A stretch of DNA of 64,000 nucleotides, taken from contig JAIXMF010000023.1 in the NCBI GenBank assembly GCA_025201365.1, positions 62,001 through 126,000 on the forward strand, in the 5' to 3' direction. This DNA is from Syncephalis plumigaleata. Lineage: Eukaryota; Zoopagomycota; Zoopagomycetes; Zoopagales; Piptocephalidaceae. The notes below the pieces were generated by a model. It did not search any database and was not told where the DNA came from. It saw only the letters and a program-made list of their open reading frames with translations. Shown here piece by piece: positions 2,421-44,200 of the stretch (position 1 is the first letter of the stretch; the number at the start of each line of letters is the position of its first letter). Made by a program: the position numbers and the translations under genes.

Positions 2421-5400
2421 ATGGAGTTGGCATTTGCCAAAAGCTTTGTTTATCTACATCACAAGTCTGATGCACCACTTGACGTTATTCGTCCTAGTGA
2501 CGATAAACAATCACTGACCGTGTTAGTTGACACGTCAGATAATCGTGACACGTAAATACGCGTATTCAACATGCATATATGCATGGTTATAATTACGCTC
2601 TCTCTTTCTCTCTATATAGATCATTTAACGTTGACTATTGTGTTGATATTCACGAAGAACAAGATCATTCGCGTGTTACTTCCCATTTTAAACATGCCAC
2701 CAGTCAAGTGCTACAAGGTATTCATGCCAGTGTATTTAGTATGAGTGCAGGGTAAGTCATTATAACATGATACATGCTTATTAGATACGTGATTTATGGT
2801 AAACAATACTAATACTCTATCTATAGTCGATGCACTTATGACAGGCAAGTCTAATGTAACCATGAATATCGATCATTGTAATGACACGTATCATTACCTA
2901 TAGGAATCGAGTAGCTACTGAAATATTGGACCAACTGGAACGATCATGGAGTAAACAACGTGATCAATATAAAGTATCCTATGTGTAAGCATTAGTGAGA
3001 TTGAGAATGAAAATATGACTTGCATTAGTAACCATTTCTTTATATGATTATCAGGTTTATTGGTATAACAGATGCACGCTGTCTAGACATATCCAATGGA
3101 GCTACTATTGATGGTATTATAATAGTAATAGTATGGCAACGATAATAGTCATAACTAATCAATACTAGGAGAAACATTACAAAAACAAGGGCTTGATCGT
3201 TTCTACGAGAAGGTGAACGATTGCAGTTCAATAAAGGAACTAGTCATACGTGGTAAGTAATCAATATAATAATGACATACTTGATGTTCATATGTATATG
3301 TAGGATGTTCACGACCATCATTAATGAGCATTCGTGTTGAAAAGTCTGGAGCACATCCAACTTGTGCCTTCCTTTCTTTGGTAAGTGATGACAATATGTA
3401 ATGATGATATATAAGTATAAAATATACTAATCAATGATATAGGTTGATTTTGGACCAGCTGATTTCACGCCAAATCCACTTGTAGAACTACAAAGTCCAA
3501 CCTCGGTCAATGTACTATCAAAGTCATTTGAAGTATTTAGTAAGTTGCCATTAGATGATGATGATAACAATAGTAAATGAATTACCTGTTAATATTTACT
3601 GATGATGTCACTTAGTGCAAGTGGTGCGTTATAGTGCGCAATCTACATTCAACGGTTACTTGCCTACGGATAACTCGATGTTGACACGATTGACAGCAGG
3701 TAAGCAGGTGGTAACTGGAATAGAATGACGTCAATACTAAGAGGAATGTAGGTGCTATTGGACAGAATTGTGCCACTACATTCATATTACACGTTGAGGT
3801 ATGTGTGTTTGTATATAGACTATTACTAGCATAATGATACAAGCGAATGCTCATCATCTATTAGGCAAACAAGAAGGATGAATTGTCCGAGATTGTGCAA
3901 GCACTAAAGTTTGCAGAGACTGCACGTAAAATCCGTTGTCATTTGGTTAGTTAGTTAGTTAAGGCTGCATCATGATGATCGATTAAATAATGCAATCTAT
4001 ACACTTGTATAGGCACCAGTCAAGGTGGATTTGAGACTACCGTATTATGAGAACAAATATCGACATCAATGTGATATTATTGAAGAGAAAGAGGTAGGTC
4101 ATAAGGATCAATGGATAGATGCAGTATTTGTAGATAGTAATGATTATTATTGTTATTACAATCAAGGCACATGTCAGAGGATTGGAGAATGAATGGGAGA
4201 CCCGTTTGAATGAGGCGAATAACAAGCTACAAGAGGAACAAGCCGAGAAGGAGCGTGTTCTAAATCGTTGTCAACAACTTGAGAATGAGTTGAGTGCCAC
4301 GGCAAATGATCTACGTCAACAGTACGAGGAGACAAATGCCAAGGTAATTATTACAAATATACATGTATACAGATATATACTCATTATTGTTTATTACATA
4401 GATGCATCATGAAATGGAACTATTAAAGAAGCAGGAGACCCTACAATTAACACGCACAGAGAAGAATTCAGTAGAAGCACAAGTGTTATACACAAGGCCA
4501 ATGTTCAAATAGGTACGTGTGTATATCGAATCATGTTAATTAACCTACCATCATTACTAATGATTGCAATAGCAATGATGGAAGATGAAAAGGAAATGGC
4601 CGCTGAATCACAACAAGTACTAATGAAGATGTTGAATCATGCCAAGGTAACATGCTTATTGATATACACCAGTGTGATATTCCATTATTAATATTGGATT
4701 TATACAGGCGGAGACTCAGCGCATCTTAGCACTCAATGAACAACTACAGCTGGCCATTCATAATCAAGAGCAAACGGCGAAAGAGACGACGAAATCATTG
4801 CAACGAAAGCTAGAGATATCCGAGGCTAACTTCAAGATAGTAATGGATAAATACACATCCACTAAGGCGAAAATGAAAGTGGAAAACAATGAAGAAGTAA
4901 TAAAATTAAGAAAGATCCTGTATACACTTGAGGAGAAGTATGTTGGATTGAAGAAAACACACAAGGCACTCGAGACAGCGCATACCGAATTGAAGGAAGG
5001 TCACAGTGTGCTCGAGAAGAAACGCACCGAGTTGAAGCAAGACTACAAGACACTTGGAGAGAAGTATGTTGAGTTGAAGCAAACGCACAAGACACTCGAG
5101 ACGACGCATGCCGAGTTAAAGCAAGATCACAACGTACTTAAGAATAAGCACGCCGAACTGAAGCAAACTCATAAGGCACTCGAGGATAAGTATACCGAGT
5201 TGGATCAAGATCACAAGACACTTGAGACGACGCATGCCGAGTTAAAGCAAGATCACAACGTACTTAAGAATAAGCACGCCGAACTGAAGCAAACTCATAA
5301 GGCAGCCGAGACAACGCATAAACAATTGGAGAAGGACCTTGAGACGACGCGCACTCAATTGAATACAGCGTTAACAATGGCGGAACAAACCCAGAAACAA

Positions 5401-25734: not shown

Positions 25735-25951
25735 AGTGATTTGACAACAGTAGGAAAACTTGAAATGAATAAGCAACAAGTAGAAAGGATAAGAAATGAA
25801 ATGGGTGATGACGTCAACGAAAAAGTGGTCATCAAATACCATCTAAGCTTTAGGAAACTGCCAAATCATTCAACACAAAGTGGTATGATTAATAATATCA
25901 CGGATGTAATGGTCAAAATATCACACATTTATTCAATAAATGAACCAGCCA

Positions 25952-28900
25952 TTAGTTGATATTTATGTAATAGGACCATGGATGAATAGACGGAAGGGAT
26001 TGTAGATATTTGTTGTTGTTGTACCAAGGAATAATGACTGAATGGCATGACACTAAAGGTCTTGCACCAATCCATTCTTGACTTGAATACCTATAATATC
26101 TACTTGATGATGTCCTTGTCTTGTCTGTAATCATAATGGATTAGTATGAGTATAATATTTTGAATTATTACTTACTGCTTAATTTTTCTCTGTAAAAAAT
26201 ATAAAAGTTCATGTTGCGATTAATACATCGTAGGTGACGATTGGAAAGGTAACTTACGCCCTATAATAAAGAACACATGTGAATCATGCGCAATATTACA
26301 ATTAGTACCTCATTCATTACGATCAGAAATGGTAACTTACAGGCTAATATATAAAAGTATAGAGGAAATCATGTATCATACTACAATTAGTACACTCATA
26401 GCTTGCAGTCAGAAAGATAACTTACACCCTGTAATAAGGATGATATGTGGATCGCGTGCCATACCGTAGTTAGTATCCCATTATTACTGCCAGAGTTGTT
26501 ACGTACCATCTATCATACAGAACCATATGTGGATCGTGTGCCATAGCGTGATTAGTACCTCGTTCATTACGGTCAAAAGGGTAACTTACGCCCTATCATA
26601 CAGGAGCATATGTGGATCGTGTGCCATATTATAATTAGTACACTTATAGGTTACAGTCAGAATGGTAACTTACGACCTAGCATACACAAGCATACAAAGA
26701 GCATGTGTCGTATTAATATCAATACACCTATACGTTATCATCGGAATAGTAACTTACGCACTGTTATCCACAAACATACATGAATCATGAGTCATACTGT
26801 CATTAGTACATCGTAGATTATCATTGCAAGTATTGACTTACTTTCTATCATACAGGAGTATATGTGGATTGTGTATCATAGCGTGATTAGTATGCCGTAT
26901 GTTGCAATCGAAATGACGACTTACGGTCTATCATACACAAGTATACATGATTTGTATGCCGTATTACAATTAGTACCTCATATGTTACAGTCAGAATAAT
27001 GACTTACGCCCTATCATACAGAAACACGTATGAATCATATGCCATGCTGTAATTAGTATACCATAGATTGTAACCGGAATATTCACTTACAGGCTGATAT
27101 ACAGGGGCATGCGGAATCATATGCCACGTCATAATTAGTAACCATGCATTGCAGTCAGAATAATAACTTACTTTCTGTTATACGGAAACACGTATAGATT
27201 AAGTGTCATATCATAGTTAGTACATTGATTCATTACAATCAGCTGGTAACTTACGCCCTATCATACACAGACATAGATGAATCGTGTGCCATATCGTAGT
27301 TAGTACTCATTCATTACGGTCAGAAGGGTAACTTACAGTCTATCATACAGGAAATCATGTGCCACGTTACAATTAGTACGTTCATTCATTGCAGTCAGAA
27401 TGATTACTTACGTCTATCATACACGAACATACGTGGATCGGTGTCGGATTGGTATTAGTACACATTCATTACGGTCAGAATGGTAACTTACGTTCTATCG
27501 TGTACAATCATATGCGAATTGTGTGCCATAGCGTGATTAGTACTCATTCATTATAGTCAGAATAATAACTTACAAGCTGTAATGCGCAAACATATGTGGA
27601 TCGTGTGCCGCATCGTGATTAGTACCTCATTCATTCATTGCGGTTAAAGTGATAACTTACGTTCTATCATACAGAAATATATGTGAATCATATGTCATAG
27701 TATGGTTAGTACTCGTTCATAGACTACAATTGTAATAATAACTTACTTGCTGTAATACAGAAACACGTATTGAGTTTGTGTAACGCTGTGATTAGTACCT
27801 CAGGTATTATGATCTGAATGAATACTTACGACCTATCATACAGGAACATATGTGGATCGTATGTCATAGCGTGATGAGTACATTCATAAATTACGATCAG
27901 AATGGTTAACTCACCCACTATCATACATGAACATATGTGGTAATGAGTCACATCGGTATTAGTACATCAGGTATAATGATCAAAATGATTACTTACTCTC
28001 TATCATACGAGAACGTATGAGGATCATGGGCGATATCATAGTTAGTACATCCATTCATTGCAATCATAATAGTGACCTACACACTGTTATGGGCAGATAT
28101 ACATGGATCGTATGTCACATCATTATTAGTACATCATAGTTTGTAAATGGAATGATAACTTACACACTGTCATACCGGGACATATGTATGAATCGCGTGT
28201 CATAGCGTGATTAGTACACCGTGCATTGGGATAGAATGATCACTTACAAGCTACCGTATACAAATATATGTGGATCGTGTGTCATGGCGTGATTAGTATC
28301 TCGTTCATTACAATCAGAATGGTAACTTACGCCCTATCATACACAGACATAGTTGAAACGGGTGTCGTATTACAATTAGTACCTCATTCATTACAGTCAA
28401 ATGATTACTTACAGTCTATCATACAGGAAATCGTGTGCCACATTACAATTAGTATCTCATCCATGCATTGCAGTCAGAATGATCACTTACGGCCTATCAT
28501 ACACGAACATACGTGGATCGTGTGCCATACCGTAGTTAGTATCCCCATTTATTGCCATCAAAATGTTCACTTACAGCCTGTTTATGCACAAACATATATG
28601 AAACATGTGCCACGTTGTAATTAGTACTTCATACATTACGATCAGAATGGTAGCTTACGTTCTATCATACGGGAACATATACGTATGGATTATACGCCAT
28701 ACCGTAGTTAGTACATTCATTCATTGCAGTCAGAATGATTACTTACAGGCTGTTTATGCACAAACATAAATGAAATGTGCGCCACATTATAATTAGTACG
28801 CAGTTTATTACGGTCAGAATGATGACTTACGGTCTATCGTATATAGGAACATATGAAACATGTGCCGTATCATAGTTAGTACGTCATTTATTACCAGCAT

Positions 28901-29341
28901 ACTGATAACCTACGCACTGTGATAGACAAGTGTATGGATTGTTTGACAGATTACAGTGAGTCTTTCATTCATTACGATCAAAATGATAACTTACTTTCGC
29001 TTGAAATGATAATCACACATGATGTTGATTTGTATTACAATTAGCATAGTGCTTGTTATGGTTAATAGGATAGCTTACGGGCTGAGCCTAACAAATTTAT
29101 AGGAAGAATAAACATAATGATGTGATTAACATATCGAGACATCCATTTAATATACATGAACTTACGAGCTATCGGTAATCATCGGTAGACAATGAAACAA
29201 TAGGCTATGATTAGTACATCAATTGATAGGGTCATGGCCAGACATACCACGACGTTCCAAGGCGGGACTGGCTTCAACGGCGACCAGACTGGTGAGAGCG
29301 ACGACGGCGGCGGCAATAGCGATAACGGCAGAGAACTTCAT
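25952..29341 (-). CDS. Secreted protein encoded by ~37 micro-exons, mostly one codon each
   Basis: Exon 1 (29,341-29,248, 94 nt) starts MKFSAVIAIAAAVVALTSL, a strong signal peptide. It runs through VAVEASPALERR, a Kex2-like dibasic end, and stops one base into a codon at donor GTATGT. About 38 introns follow, each with a GTAAGT-type donor, usually a TACTAAT-like branch site and a TAG/CAG acceptor. Exon starts are 71-88 nt apart. Thirty-four exons are exactly 3 nt; the exceptions are 5 nt (28,999-28,995), 2 nt (27,413-27,412) and 14 nt (26,189-26,176). One exon is 3 or 9 nt (29,081 or 29,087 down to 29,079). The first two triplets and the 5-nt exon complete A-P-P-K and set phase 0, after which each exon is a codon. 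They read CTPNAATGLCC, RWVQNLN, (2 nt), then TGKPGTKCVGMGPG. The terminal exon (26,124-25,952) is preceded by a short intron (51 nt) and followed by an AATAAA. The C-terminal frame is uncertain. No homologue is recognised; a small Cys-bearing secreted effector or wall protein is inferred. Confidence 0.8.
26125..29247 (-). repeat. Tandem array of ~38 similar mini-introns (introner-like)
   Basis: Unit period is mostly 81-85 nt. The minus-strand consensus has donor GTAAGTTAYC, a block like ATTCTGAYYGTAATGAATGA, the branch site GTACTAAT, a block like ATATGGCACACGATCCACAT and an end like GTTCCTGTATGATAG. Then come three variable bases and the next GTAAGT. Similarity covers whole introns, so units arose by copying. 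Intron lengths vary, but the gap between acceptor and next donor is fixed at 3 nt in 34 cases. The first (29,247-29,169, GTATGT donor) and last (26,175-26,125) introns are the most divergent. Confidence 0.9.
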
Positions 29342-41954: not shown

Positions 41955-44200
41955 TTAATTTGTTTTTTGATGTTTGGATCCCTCTTGATCTTGATCTTCA
42001 CTTAGTGAATGCTTTGCGGACGTACTAGGCTCAGGAGGAGAAACAACACCTCGTTGAAATTGTGTTGGAATAAGGTTGTCCTTACGAACACTGCGAATAA
42101 TCTGAATGAAGTTCAGACATGCAGCCATATCCCGATTCCATAAGCGGTGTTCGTATCTTTTAAATTCCGGATCCTCTTTATAATCCACCTCCAGCTTGCC
42201 CTCTTGCTCCTTCTTAGCCTTTATATCTTTCATGGCTTTATTACAAGTTTGATGTGTGCATCTAATAAAATAATTAATTAATATATTATAATAAATAGCA
42301 AAGTGTAATAAATTGTACTTACCTTAAAAGACCATGACAGATAATTTTATGGCTGTCTTCATGTTGCTTCGACCGAGGATTCGCGACCTTCTTGAATTTC
42401 TCGAGGGTGGGATTGTTGCAGGCTGGGCAGCACTTGCTGGTCTTGTGCTCGTCGATTAGAAAGACTTTAAACCCATGTCGTTTCAAAAGCCTTCTAAAGC
42501 CAATACCACGTATGGGCTCGTGGTATTTGGTGTGAGGAGCGGACCAGTTCCCCATCACAAATGCTGCATCCCCACCGAACTTCCCTCTTAAGTCATCAAT
42601 CAGCTTTTGATCACTTTGTTGTTTGCTGATGTAGGCCGAAAGCTTCAACTTCCTGAAGAGAGGATGTTGGGCAGAATGGTCGGAGGGGAGGGTGAGAGTA
42701 TCACGTAAAAGCTGGTGAGAACATCTGTGTGTGTGCTCGATACTTCAGATATTTCTTATAATTCCCCAGAGATACAGTGTTGCCCTGGGCTTTTGAAAGA
42801 GCTGCCTCGGCATCCAGCACCGCCAGATTTCCCTCTTGCAGTCATCGCGAATCCTGCGGTATTCCTTCGTCCTCCGCATCTTGTCTTGATGTAGTTTCGT
42901 GTACTGATATTTGCGCTTCTCTTCCACCGTCGAGTTTTCGTGTACACAAAACAGTAAGTTTCTTCTTCCCGGGTCCACCGCCACGCATTTGCCGTCGATT
43001 GCCTTGTGATCATCAGCTTTTAATTTACTGATATACGGGAAGGGCTCCTTTGCTGATTTCGCTCCCCCTTCCTCGATGACCTTCTCGATGCCCTTTTTGA
43101 GGACCGTGACACCAACGCCATCGGTCTCAATCGAGCCAGAAAACTCGAGCTTGCCATCCTTTTGATCCTTGAATACCTTTCGATTGAGCTCCACGATTTG
43201 TTTCCAATGTTCCTGCTTTTTCTTCTTAAGGGCTTCCTTCCTCTCTTCATCAGTCCACTTCTTCTCCGCTTCCTTCTGCTGCTTAGTCTTCTTATTCTCA
43301 CAATGACATCCTAATATGTTGTGGCAAAGAATAGTAATGTCGATATGAATGTAGCATGGTGAAAAGGATCGGCGCAAGGGAAAGCAGTTGAAAGCTTTCA
43401 AACGGATGCGAGGGAACACGCGCGCAAGCTCAAAGAACGCTTTGAAGTGCTTCACCGGGTTTTTCTTACAGTCGTAATAAAGGCCGTTTTACCAATTCGT
43501 AACGTTATGTAAGCATTAAAACATTTTGAATTTGCTGAATGCTCTGTAAATGGCGATCCTTTTTAGCCAACGCTTCAATCCCCCCTCGGTGTACCATCGC
43601 TAGCTTGAACTCTTTTGCTGGATCTGTGATGCTCTGGTTCTCGCGGAAGCTCATCAGCATTCGGCTTTCTTCATATCTTTAATCCCTTCCTCATATCCTT
43701 TACTTCTCTTGACATCGAAAACTTGTTAATAGCGCGTCGAAGAAGTCGCCAAAGCGCAATCGGACGTTGTTGGTGTAAGCACGTACATCTTCGTTGCCTC
43801 GTAAGTAGCTGACTGATCGGCATAGGCTAACACCGGCGGTTGATAGCCAGTAAGTTTAAGGTAGTCTTTGAGATGCTTCTTGATGAATTTGCGATGTCGA
43901 ACCGTTTTTTCTTTGGTCATGCCTTTTTCCGTACGCTTGATTAAGGAAAGCCATACTTGTTTGAAGAAGTCTTCACGAATATAATTTTCGAACTTAAAGT
44001 TTCGCTTATTATGTTCTTTAAGGAATATATATTTCGCGAAGGCATAAGCATGGAAGGTCGTGGTGTGTACGATGTTTACAAAATCGCGTAACACCGCGAC
44101 GCCTCTTCCAACCAATGCCAGAAAGCGAGGACTTCACAGCCAGAACTCGTTCACTATCGGCAGAAGTAGACGAGCCATGAGTACCTGGCTGTGACGCCAT
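41955..44200 (-). CDS. Fanzor, eukaryotic TnpB-like RNA-guided nuclease, interrupted
   Basis: Start MASQPGTHGSSTSADSER at 44,200. The N-terminal helical part reads FVNIVHTTTFHAYAFAKYI and AYTNNVRLRFGDFFDALLTS. RuvC-I is DGKCVAVDPGRRNLLFCV with the catalytic Asp. RuvC-II is GFKVFLIDEHKTSKCCPAC with Glu, running into a CxxC zinc finger whose second half is GLLRCTHQTC. RuvC-III is WNRDMAACLNFIQIIRSV with the last Asp. So the D/E/D triad and four Cys ligands are all visible. One 61-nt intron (42,262-42,322) is clear. The frame shifts at several points in the N-terminal half (near 44,110, 43,760, 43,450 and 42,700), so the copy is decayed or affected by base losses. Family knowledge: Fanzors cut DNA guided by an RNA made from the 3' end of their own locus. 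A guide could therefore lie at about 41,844-41,955, which is inference. Confidence 0.8.

Follow-up and report, generated by a model that had tools for sequence, protein, structure and literature searches.

How can a gene be read if almost every one of its exons is a single codon long? The question is raised by a locus on the minus strand of a 64,000-nt stretch of DNA from Syncephalis plumigaleata (Zoopagales), a fungus that we take to be a mycoparasite and whose genome comprises 32.6 Mb in 383 contigs. We refer to this stretch as the window, and all coordinates given below are positions in it. A preliminary description of the window had proposed that the locus is a secreted-protein gene built from successive single-codon exons. 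We confirmed that the array of tiny exons is real, and its sequence makes it highly probable that the locus belongs to a large family of small secreted-peptide genes. We likewise consider it very likely that the genes of this family devote a separate exon to nearly every codon of the mature peptide.

The Exon Array

A dynamic-programming parser, which scores donor, branch site and acceptor and has no preference for exon length or frame, places 38 introns between 29247 and 26125, in agreement with the earlier report of a signal-peptide exon followed by about 38 consecutive introns. Among the 37 internal exons, 33 measure 3 nt, and lengths of 9, 5, 2 and 14 nt occur once each; the reported spacing of 3 nt in 34 of 37 gaps stands as a pattern, with the count corrected to 33. 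Stop triplets are absent from the 3-nt exons, as had been stated. Introns 1 to 37 are 68–85 nt long and intron 38 is 51 nt long, and most read GTAAGT...TACTAAY...YAG, which bears out the donors, acceptors and usual branch sites noted before. The unit is tandemly repeated (Tandem Repeats Finder, TRF: period 83, 29.6 copies), and the window contains 34 occurrences of AGNNNGTAAGT, of which 28 lie within the array, compared with a mean of 2.1 (standard deviation 1.5, maximum 8) in 100 shuffles.

The same parser was applied to 35 loci: the window copy, 29 others among the 30 loci that best match its exon 1, and the first five genes on C1, a contig of the same genome (L-numbers denote loci analysed and P-numbers deposited proteins). 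Together these loci have 1006 exons, 826 of them with a length of 3 nt, and the longest run of such exons is 44; from the fourth internal exon onward, with the stop exon excluded, the count is 779 of 806. Exons of 3 nt numbered 2 among 373 in the antisense arrays, 1 among 311 in shuffled arrays, and, in the rest of the window, 3 among 159 on the plus strand and 0 among 141 on the minus strand; the longest run in any control did not exceed one. These controls rule out chance or a parser artefact. The genes carry 10 to 36 three-nucleotide exons in the 18 loci whose reading frame closes, and 45 in L036, whose parse does not reach its end.

Triplets as Probable Codons

Stop triplets are depleted in the family as a whole. 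In 29 loci, six close paralogs being excluded, there is one stop among 616 triplets where the base composition at each of the three positions predicts 22.9, and in all 35 loci there is one among 781 where 27.4 are expected. The lone in-array stop is a TGA in L037, a locus that also has a 2-nt exon. Exon 1 closes in phase 1 in most loci, and the small exons after it vary by gene in number and length, yet the first triplet is in phase 0 in 31 of 32 readable loci; in the exception, L018, the parsed exon 1 has 92 nt. The parse reaches a stop exon of the form NNN..TAARCR in 24 loci by a stricter rule (26 by a looser one), and in 18 of the 24 a single open reading frame (ORF) ends at the TAA of that exon. 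The six that do not close are L006, in which the ATG was not found, L018, L020, L037, L049 and the window copy. In four recent whole-gene duplicate pairs only 2 of 482 exon nucleotides have changed, compared with 177 of 8794 in the remainder of the introns; for the pair L053/L054 the numbers are 0 of 77 and 81 of 1313. The depletion of stops, the phase bookkeeping and the low exon divergence in duplicates support the proposal of a secreted-protein gene of successive single-codon exons, as do intronless paralogs, in which the outer junctions are as predicted, and two deposited models with runs of the predicted codons, both described below.

The predicted products resemble small secreted peptides, for example MKFSAVIAIAVAVVALTSLVAVEASPALVRR-ALTPKDCKPDETFYDGYGGGHCCKQDGNDIVCRYQ from L057/L067. 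A C..CC..C framework is present in 11 of the 18 closed products, two have two Cys, and five are Cys-free; exon 1 makes up about 40–70% of the coding sequence (CDS) in these loci. A Pfam search with five predicted peptides returned nothing above cut-off (one Wzz match at E 0.17).

Codon choice in the triplets is peculiar. The ratios CAA:CAG, AAA:AAG and GAA:GAG are 17:0, 39:4 and 15:14, compared with 46:16, 28:55 and 22:39 in five ordinary ORFs of the window, and, apart from ATG and TGG, codons with G in third position account for 27 of 577 triplets versus 225 of 1101 codons in ordinary ORFs. The strength order of NAG acceptors is the same as the order in which CAG, AAG and GAG are avoided in the triplets. 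Since CAG is absent, AAG rare and GAG unaffected, the codons seem to be chosen so that no second acceptor arises 3 nt downstream. A comparison of stops in the three frames (0, 2 and 30 in frames 0, 1 and 2 of 323 triplets in uninterrupted runs) was rejected as a control, because frame 1 is low through composition, T being rare at triplet position 2, and frame 2 is the only useful contrast.

Introns and Splice Signals

The array introns have the features of U2-type introns, namely GT-AG borders, a TACTAAY-like branch site and few AG from branch to acceptor, together with some GC donors. They are about 80 nt long, and TACTAAY usually lies 41 nt ahead of the exon. In unit pairs compared across genes, the donor, branch and YAG columns change less than the remainder of the intron in all four bins that have remainder divergence (0.040, 0.020 and 0.020 versus 0.081 in the 5–10% bin; 0.039, 0.063 and 0.036 versus 0.152 in the 10–20% bin). 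The four recent duplicate pairs differ at 2 of 834 donor and 1 of 417 YAG positions. In 436 introns, AG occurs 73 times between branch and acceptor versus 776 in shuffles, and it is scarce between donor and branch as well (256 versus 690 shuffled); the contrasts in the unit pairs across genes and in AG counts are exaggerated, because the units were selected by those very signals.

A branch-to-acceptor distance specific to the arrays is unsupported: in two importin-alpha introns, read by eye, it is about 33 and 37 nt, and the crude intron scan used for this comparison is not a clean intron set. In L043/L071, L070/L042 and L052/L074 some introns are near 61 and 72 nt long besides the common 80, with the branch-to-exon distance shorter in step (about 22 and 32 versus 41). 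In three loci (L020/L030, L050/L079 and L065/L039) a TGG triplet is followed by the GC donor GCAAGT.

Extent of the Gene Family

Membership of the locus in a large gene family is absent from the preliminary description. With up to three mismatches, the intron-1 motif has 108 matches in the genome (reversed control 0) and the core of the last exon has 155 copies (control 0), and the strict unit TACTAAY N35-55 AG NNN GTAAGT has 1308 matches versus 25 in the reversed control. An exon-1 DNA query gave 204 candidate matches, 40 of which were scored, every one with at least 90% identity. Relatives of the signal-peptide segment, intronless ones included, are encoded at 144 loci (150 of 167 candidates scored). 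We estimate about 2,350 three-nucleotide exons in the genome, scaling from the 35 parsed loci, in which 459 strict-pattern units correspond to 826 parser exons, on the assumption of equal recall genome-wide. In most matching loci, some of which overlap, the shared blocks also extend some 200 nt beyond the ATG on its 5' side and some 180 nt into the last exon.

The Window Copy

All five parts of a family gene (exon 1, phase-setting exon, 3-nt run, stop exon and 3' exon) are present in the window copy, but the frame fails to close. Exon 1 (29248..29341, 94 nt, like all features of the locus on the minus strand) starts with the ATG at 29341 and encodes the signal-peptide-like MKFSAVIAIAAAVVALTSLVAVEASPALERR plus 1 nt (phase 1). 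It ends in a dibasic RR, presumably a Kex2-like site; its N-terminus is hydrophobic as read by eye, from which we predict that the segment acts as a secretion signal. Intron 1 (29169..29247, 79 nt, GTATGT...TACTAAT...TAG) holds the family's marker motif. It is followed by exon 2 (29166..29168), the triplet CTC, whose join to exon 1 is uninterrupted DNA in intronless paralogs, by exon 3 of the parse (29079..29087, 9 nt), and by exon 4 (28995..28999), whose 5 nt bring the frame to 0 ahead of the triplets. The array itself (26258..28916) consists of exons 5 to 37; 32 of these 33 exons have 3 nt and the introns between them 72–85 nt, and exon 23 (27412..27413), with 2 nt, shifts the frame in the parse. 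Exon 38 (26176..26189, 14 nt), the penultimate exon, is the counterpart of the family stop exon (NNN..TAAGCR). The last exon (25928..26124) starts with ACAAGACAAGGACATCATCAAGTAG and was taken to the AATAAA at 25933-25928 as the putative 3' end; in members that close at the stop exon it is 3' untranslated. A TATAAA lies at 29494-29489, about 150 nt 5' of the ATG and within the upstream block common to paralogs. Both elements, read by eye, match the upstream TATA box and downstream AATAAA of the preliminary description, from which the frame-shifting 2-nt and 14-nt exons are absent.

Intronless Paralogs and Deposited Models

Several paralogs lack the introns. In L083/L084 and L088, CGTCGTGC(C/T)CCTCAA is uninterrupted and equals, within one base, the predicted join of exon 1, CTC and CTCAA; L085 has CCTAA at the exon 1-2-3 join. 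Together with L085, the same loci contain TAAGCA(A/G)..CAAGAC(A/G)AGGACA, as predicted for the join between stop exon and 3' exon. L092, L094 and L095 are complete genes without introns; they encode the family signal peptide, and their ORF closes at the stop-motif TAA, and in L083-L085 and L088 the ORF stops two codons before it. All seven have the signal peptide, stop motif and 3' exon in common with the micro-exon genes. In the genome, the stop-exon/3'-exon join has 101 matches with up to three mismatches, 19 of them with at most one; in most of the listed three-mismatch matches an acceptor such as TTACAG replaces the stop exon, as expected for intron-bearing genes. The pattern of the exon 1-2-3 join has 24 matches with at most one mismatch (control 0), and of six that were retrieved some are not plainly family genes. 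The intronless paralogs confirm the predicted outer junctions only, not the inner triplets.

A protein search found 17 named S. plumigaleata proteins with the family N-terminus. One of them, BDF22DRAFT_685685 (P0122), matches the parse of L070/L042 in the runs PPIHWKD, KTYEMHFENGKGCMFSNG, PGWISPSD and IGPV, its longest identical stretch being 18 residues that correspond to successive single-codon exons; it lacks eight predicted residues (first P, Q, E, C, towards the start, and later G, T, P, P) and diverges after IGPV. Another, BDF22DRAFT_685769 (P0126), matches the parse of L043/L071 over NPINGSMDYVYWKPIVPGYWGPIN, which corresponds to 24 consecutive single-codon exons, and also over GL, CY and TPSMEKE; it lacks C, P, C and R, and has RKFMYINYS where the parse gives LA. 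In a six-frame check of the DNA retrieved by then, none of ten five-residue words from the stretches in P0122, P0126 and P0124 occurred in a contiguous frame. The deposited models read the same splice pattern independently, but are no proof of transcripts. P0121 and P0127 read through intron 1, and some other models enter 3'-exon sequence. Such genes escape annotation: of three models compared with the parse, only two follow the array at length.

Proteins from jgi/ena contigs (P0138-P0142 and P0144-P0146) have a related signal peptide, for example ..ATPVLDRR. Some of them continue GTSGHGHIN-like, as if reading through sequence resembling intron 1, which suggests that the family or its first intron may exist beyond the S. 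plumigaleata genome.

Probable Gain and Loss of Cassettes

When paralogs are aligned by intron sequence alone, their peptides align codon by codon and the gaps are whole units (two in L035/L036, one in L032/L057 and twelve in L034/L041). In unit pairs between genes the triplets diverge faster than the introns, and so they do in five of six gene pairs aligned by introns: intron divergence and changed triplet nucleotides are 2.2% and 7/57 in L034/L041, 6.3% and 26/87 in L052/L065, 11.5% and 18/87 in L032/L057, 17.3% and 35/87 in L041/L057, and 7.8% and 3/27 in L068/L051. However, this does not hold as a general rule, since the four recent duplicates show the opposite, and L035/L036 (introns 8.0%, triplets 7/108), unlike the other five intron-aligned pairs, has no triplet excess. 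In nine gene pairs, 19 of 35 changed triplets differ at two or three nucleotides, and the flanks of changed triplets have diverged by 0.147 near and 0.119 far, those of unchanged triplets by 0.036 and 0.044, values that pool pairs of unequal divergence. With diverged flanks and multi-nucleotide triplet changes, positive selection and cassette swapping are indistinguishable here. We infer that unequal exchange and conversion between introns add, remove and perhaps swap codons in frame.

Proposed Mechanism and Alternative Explanations

In the mechanism we propose, exon 1 would supply a signal-peptide-like segment up to the dibasic site, a few tiny exons would then set the phase, the mature peptide would be spelled one codon per exon, and the stop exon NNN..TAARCR with the shared 3' exon would end the gene. 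Because the introns are similar to one another, the gene can be regarded as a tandem array of intron-plus-codon cassettes whose gain or loss would preserve the frame. An acceptor complex and a U1-bound donor do not fit side by side on a 3-nt exon; the spliceosome would therefore remove the introns serially, and with each intron removed the message would grow by a codon and the following donor would become available. Nearly all codons would enter the mRNA, and the products would have their effect extracellularly, the host fungus being the probable target. A broader proposal, to which we give an even chance, is that the arrangement is an architecture for evolvability: intron recombination would insert, delete and swap single amino acids in frame, splicing would proceed codon by codon in 5'-to-3' order, and about a hundred genes with about 2,350 single-codon exons would form a hypervariable secreted arsenal of a fungal parasite, possibly with combinatorial inclusion.

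An alternative explanation is that the array is an expanded intronic repeat, in which case exon 1 would be spliced past it, onto the stop exon or the last exon, and the mRNA would contain no triplets. The evident tandem repetition (TRF period 83, 29.6 copies) would fit such a repeat, as would the models P0125 and P0133, which pass from the 5' part into apparent 3'-exon sequence. The genomic DNA establishes the architecture, the in-frame coding logic, the constraint on exons and splice sites and the whole-cassette gaps between paralogs; that single-codon splicing is predicted from this DNA also counts for the repeat. However, stops are depleted, exons of recent duplicates have hardly diverged, 31 of 32 loci reach the triplets in phase 0, 18 ORFs close, 11 of the 18 closed products have C..CC..C, and deposited models contain 24 and 18 consecutive triplet residues. 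We regard the intronic repeat as very improbable, and a pure intronic satellite is disfavoured by the codon-level evidence from stops, duplicate divergence and phase. A second possibility, as much an addition to the codon-per-exon reading as a rival of it, is that the triplets are optional and that transcripts carry variable subsets, so that one gene would yield many peptides. The units are symmetric and in phase 0, and since each has 3 nt, skipping would keep the frame; the codons missing from deposited models often stand beside the weaker donors GTAGGT, GTGAGT, GTAAGC and GTAAAT, and the micro-exon genes (MEGs) of schistosomes are said, in the accessible part of one report, to make variants by alternative splicing (PMC5825161). 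However, P0122 includes I before GTGAGT and E before GTAGGC and omits P beside GTAAGT, exons of 3 nt may simply go missing in an alignment or a gene prediction, and the scarcity of exon changes in duplicates suggests a need for full-length products. Optional inclusion therefore appears unlikely to us, though less so than the repeat.

For the window copy itself, it is nearly an even question whether it is a decayed member of a functional family that gives no normal product. Its 2-nt and 14-nt exons and a parse that does not close at the stop-exon TAA suggest decay, and L020/L030 and L037 have 2-nt exons too. However, most of the remaining splice signals in this copy are close to consensus, and its triplets are free of stops and still include TGC, TGT TGT and TGC, so any damage would be recent or bypassed at the RNA level. 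Intact family members, as judged from their parses, exist beside a possibly decayed window copy, and the preliminary view of the locus as a secreted-protein gene is supported for the family, with the reservation that this copy is out of frame in the parse.

Several observations weigh against the reading of one codon per exon. The window copy is out of frame in the parse through the 2-nt exon 23 and the 14-nt exon 38, so it may itself not produce a protein; 2-nt exons inside the array also occur in L020/L030 and L037. No full gene was obtained from L006, L018, L051, L055, L059 and L078, and the 35 parsed loci are not a random sample of the family, as they were chosen by similarity to the window exon 1 or by position first on C1. 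The parser picks units by their splice signals, which inflates the conservation and AG contrasts, and in recent duplicates the branch site (15/973) lies hardly below the remainder of the introns (177/8794). Five of the 18 closed products are without Cys. Only three of the 17 named proteins were compared with the parse, and the third, P0124, matches L052/L074 over QEWNEF alone after exon 1; both of the other models omit predicted codons, one has an unrelated stretch, and a gene finder driven by splice sites could in principle yield such models.

If confirmed, the family would mark a lower limit for exon definition and would offer a natural system for studying the order and fidelity of serial splicing, with tens of steps per message. 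It would also be a direct case of introns serving as recombination spacers between codons, an old idea on genes in pieces.

Other Features of the Window

At 42319-43488, on the minus strand, two adjoining open stretches resemble fragments of a protein of the TnpB/Fanzor type; their Pfam matches, Cas12f1-like_TNB at E 0.0014 and OrfB_IS605 at E 0.00037, fall short of the cut-offs. On the plus strand, 4924-5301 holds three copies of a 126-bp tandem repeat in an open frame, coiled-coil-like by eye. An importin-alpha piece has 63–79% identity to the best 120 of 1504 relatives, including Dimargaris, Racocetra and Linderina; these identities are in keeping with an early-diverging fungus.

Comparison with Known Systems

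The openly licensed literature that we searched, a scope that leaves most subscription papers outside, contains no title or abstract describing runs of single-codon exons, and the earlier statement that such a run is undescribed on this scale holds within it. According to the accessible parts of two reports, schistosome MEGs are parasite genes for secreted proteins that are encoded largely in short exons, mostly multiples of 3, with exons of 6–81 bp (3–81 in one abstract), mostly 15 bp, 10–20 exons per gene and introns of 0.1–5 kb (PMC10526429, PMC5825161). Parasite genes for secreted proteins (predicted ones here) with much of the coding sequence in short multiple-of-3 exons are what the two have in common; unlike MEGs, and as far as descriptions can be compared, the Syncephalis family has long runs of 3-nt exons and mutually similar introns of about 80 nt. 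MEGs are described in one of these reports as having about 80% of the coding region in short symmetric exons of 6–36 bp (PMC5825161), whereas the Syncephalis exons are symmetric but have 3 nt, and the 94-nt exon 1 takes about 40–70% of the CDS.

The bicycle genes of aphids are likewise an effector-like secreted family rich in small exons, with about 17 exons per gene on average, more than 100 microexons in a megacycle gene, and internal exons that are almost all of phase 2, as given in the accessible part of the source (PMC9168663). The Syncephalis arrays, in contrast, are in phase 0 in 31 of 32 loci and have exons one codon long. The SP7-like effectors are likewise secreted fungal proteins, and conserved exon-intron structure helped to trace the family; in the description accessible to us they are specific to Glomeromycotina and single-codon exons are not mentioned (PMC11333574), whereas Syncephalis belongs to Zoopagomycota.

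Isolated exons of 1 to 3 nt are described, in the accessible parts of the reports, for APC11 of Arabidopsis and CYP621A of Fusarium (PMC4674806, PMC12940212). They show that spliceosomes can include exons of the size predicted in Syncephalis; unlike here, these are lone exons in ordinary genes, with no runs of tens. At the ratchet points of recursive splicing an acceptor abuts a donor, which is regenerated stepwise with 0 nt left. The stepwise succession of acceptor and donor would be similar in Syncephalis, but each step would leave one codon, with 3 nt between acceptor and donor in 826 of 1006 exons. Given that isolated exons of 1–3 nt and genes of the MEG type are already known, we rate the family as an extreme form of micro-exon genes, whose cassette architecture is without a precedent that we found.

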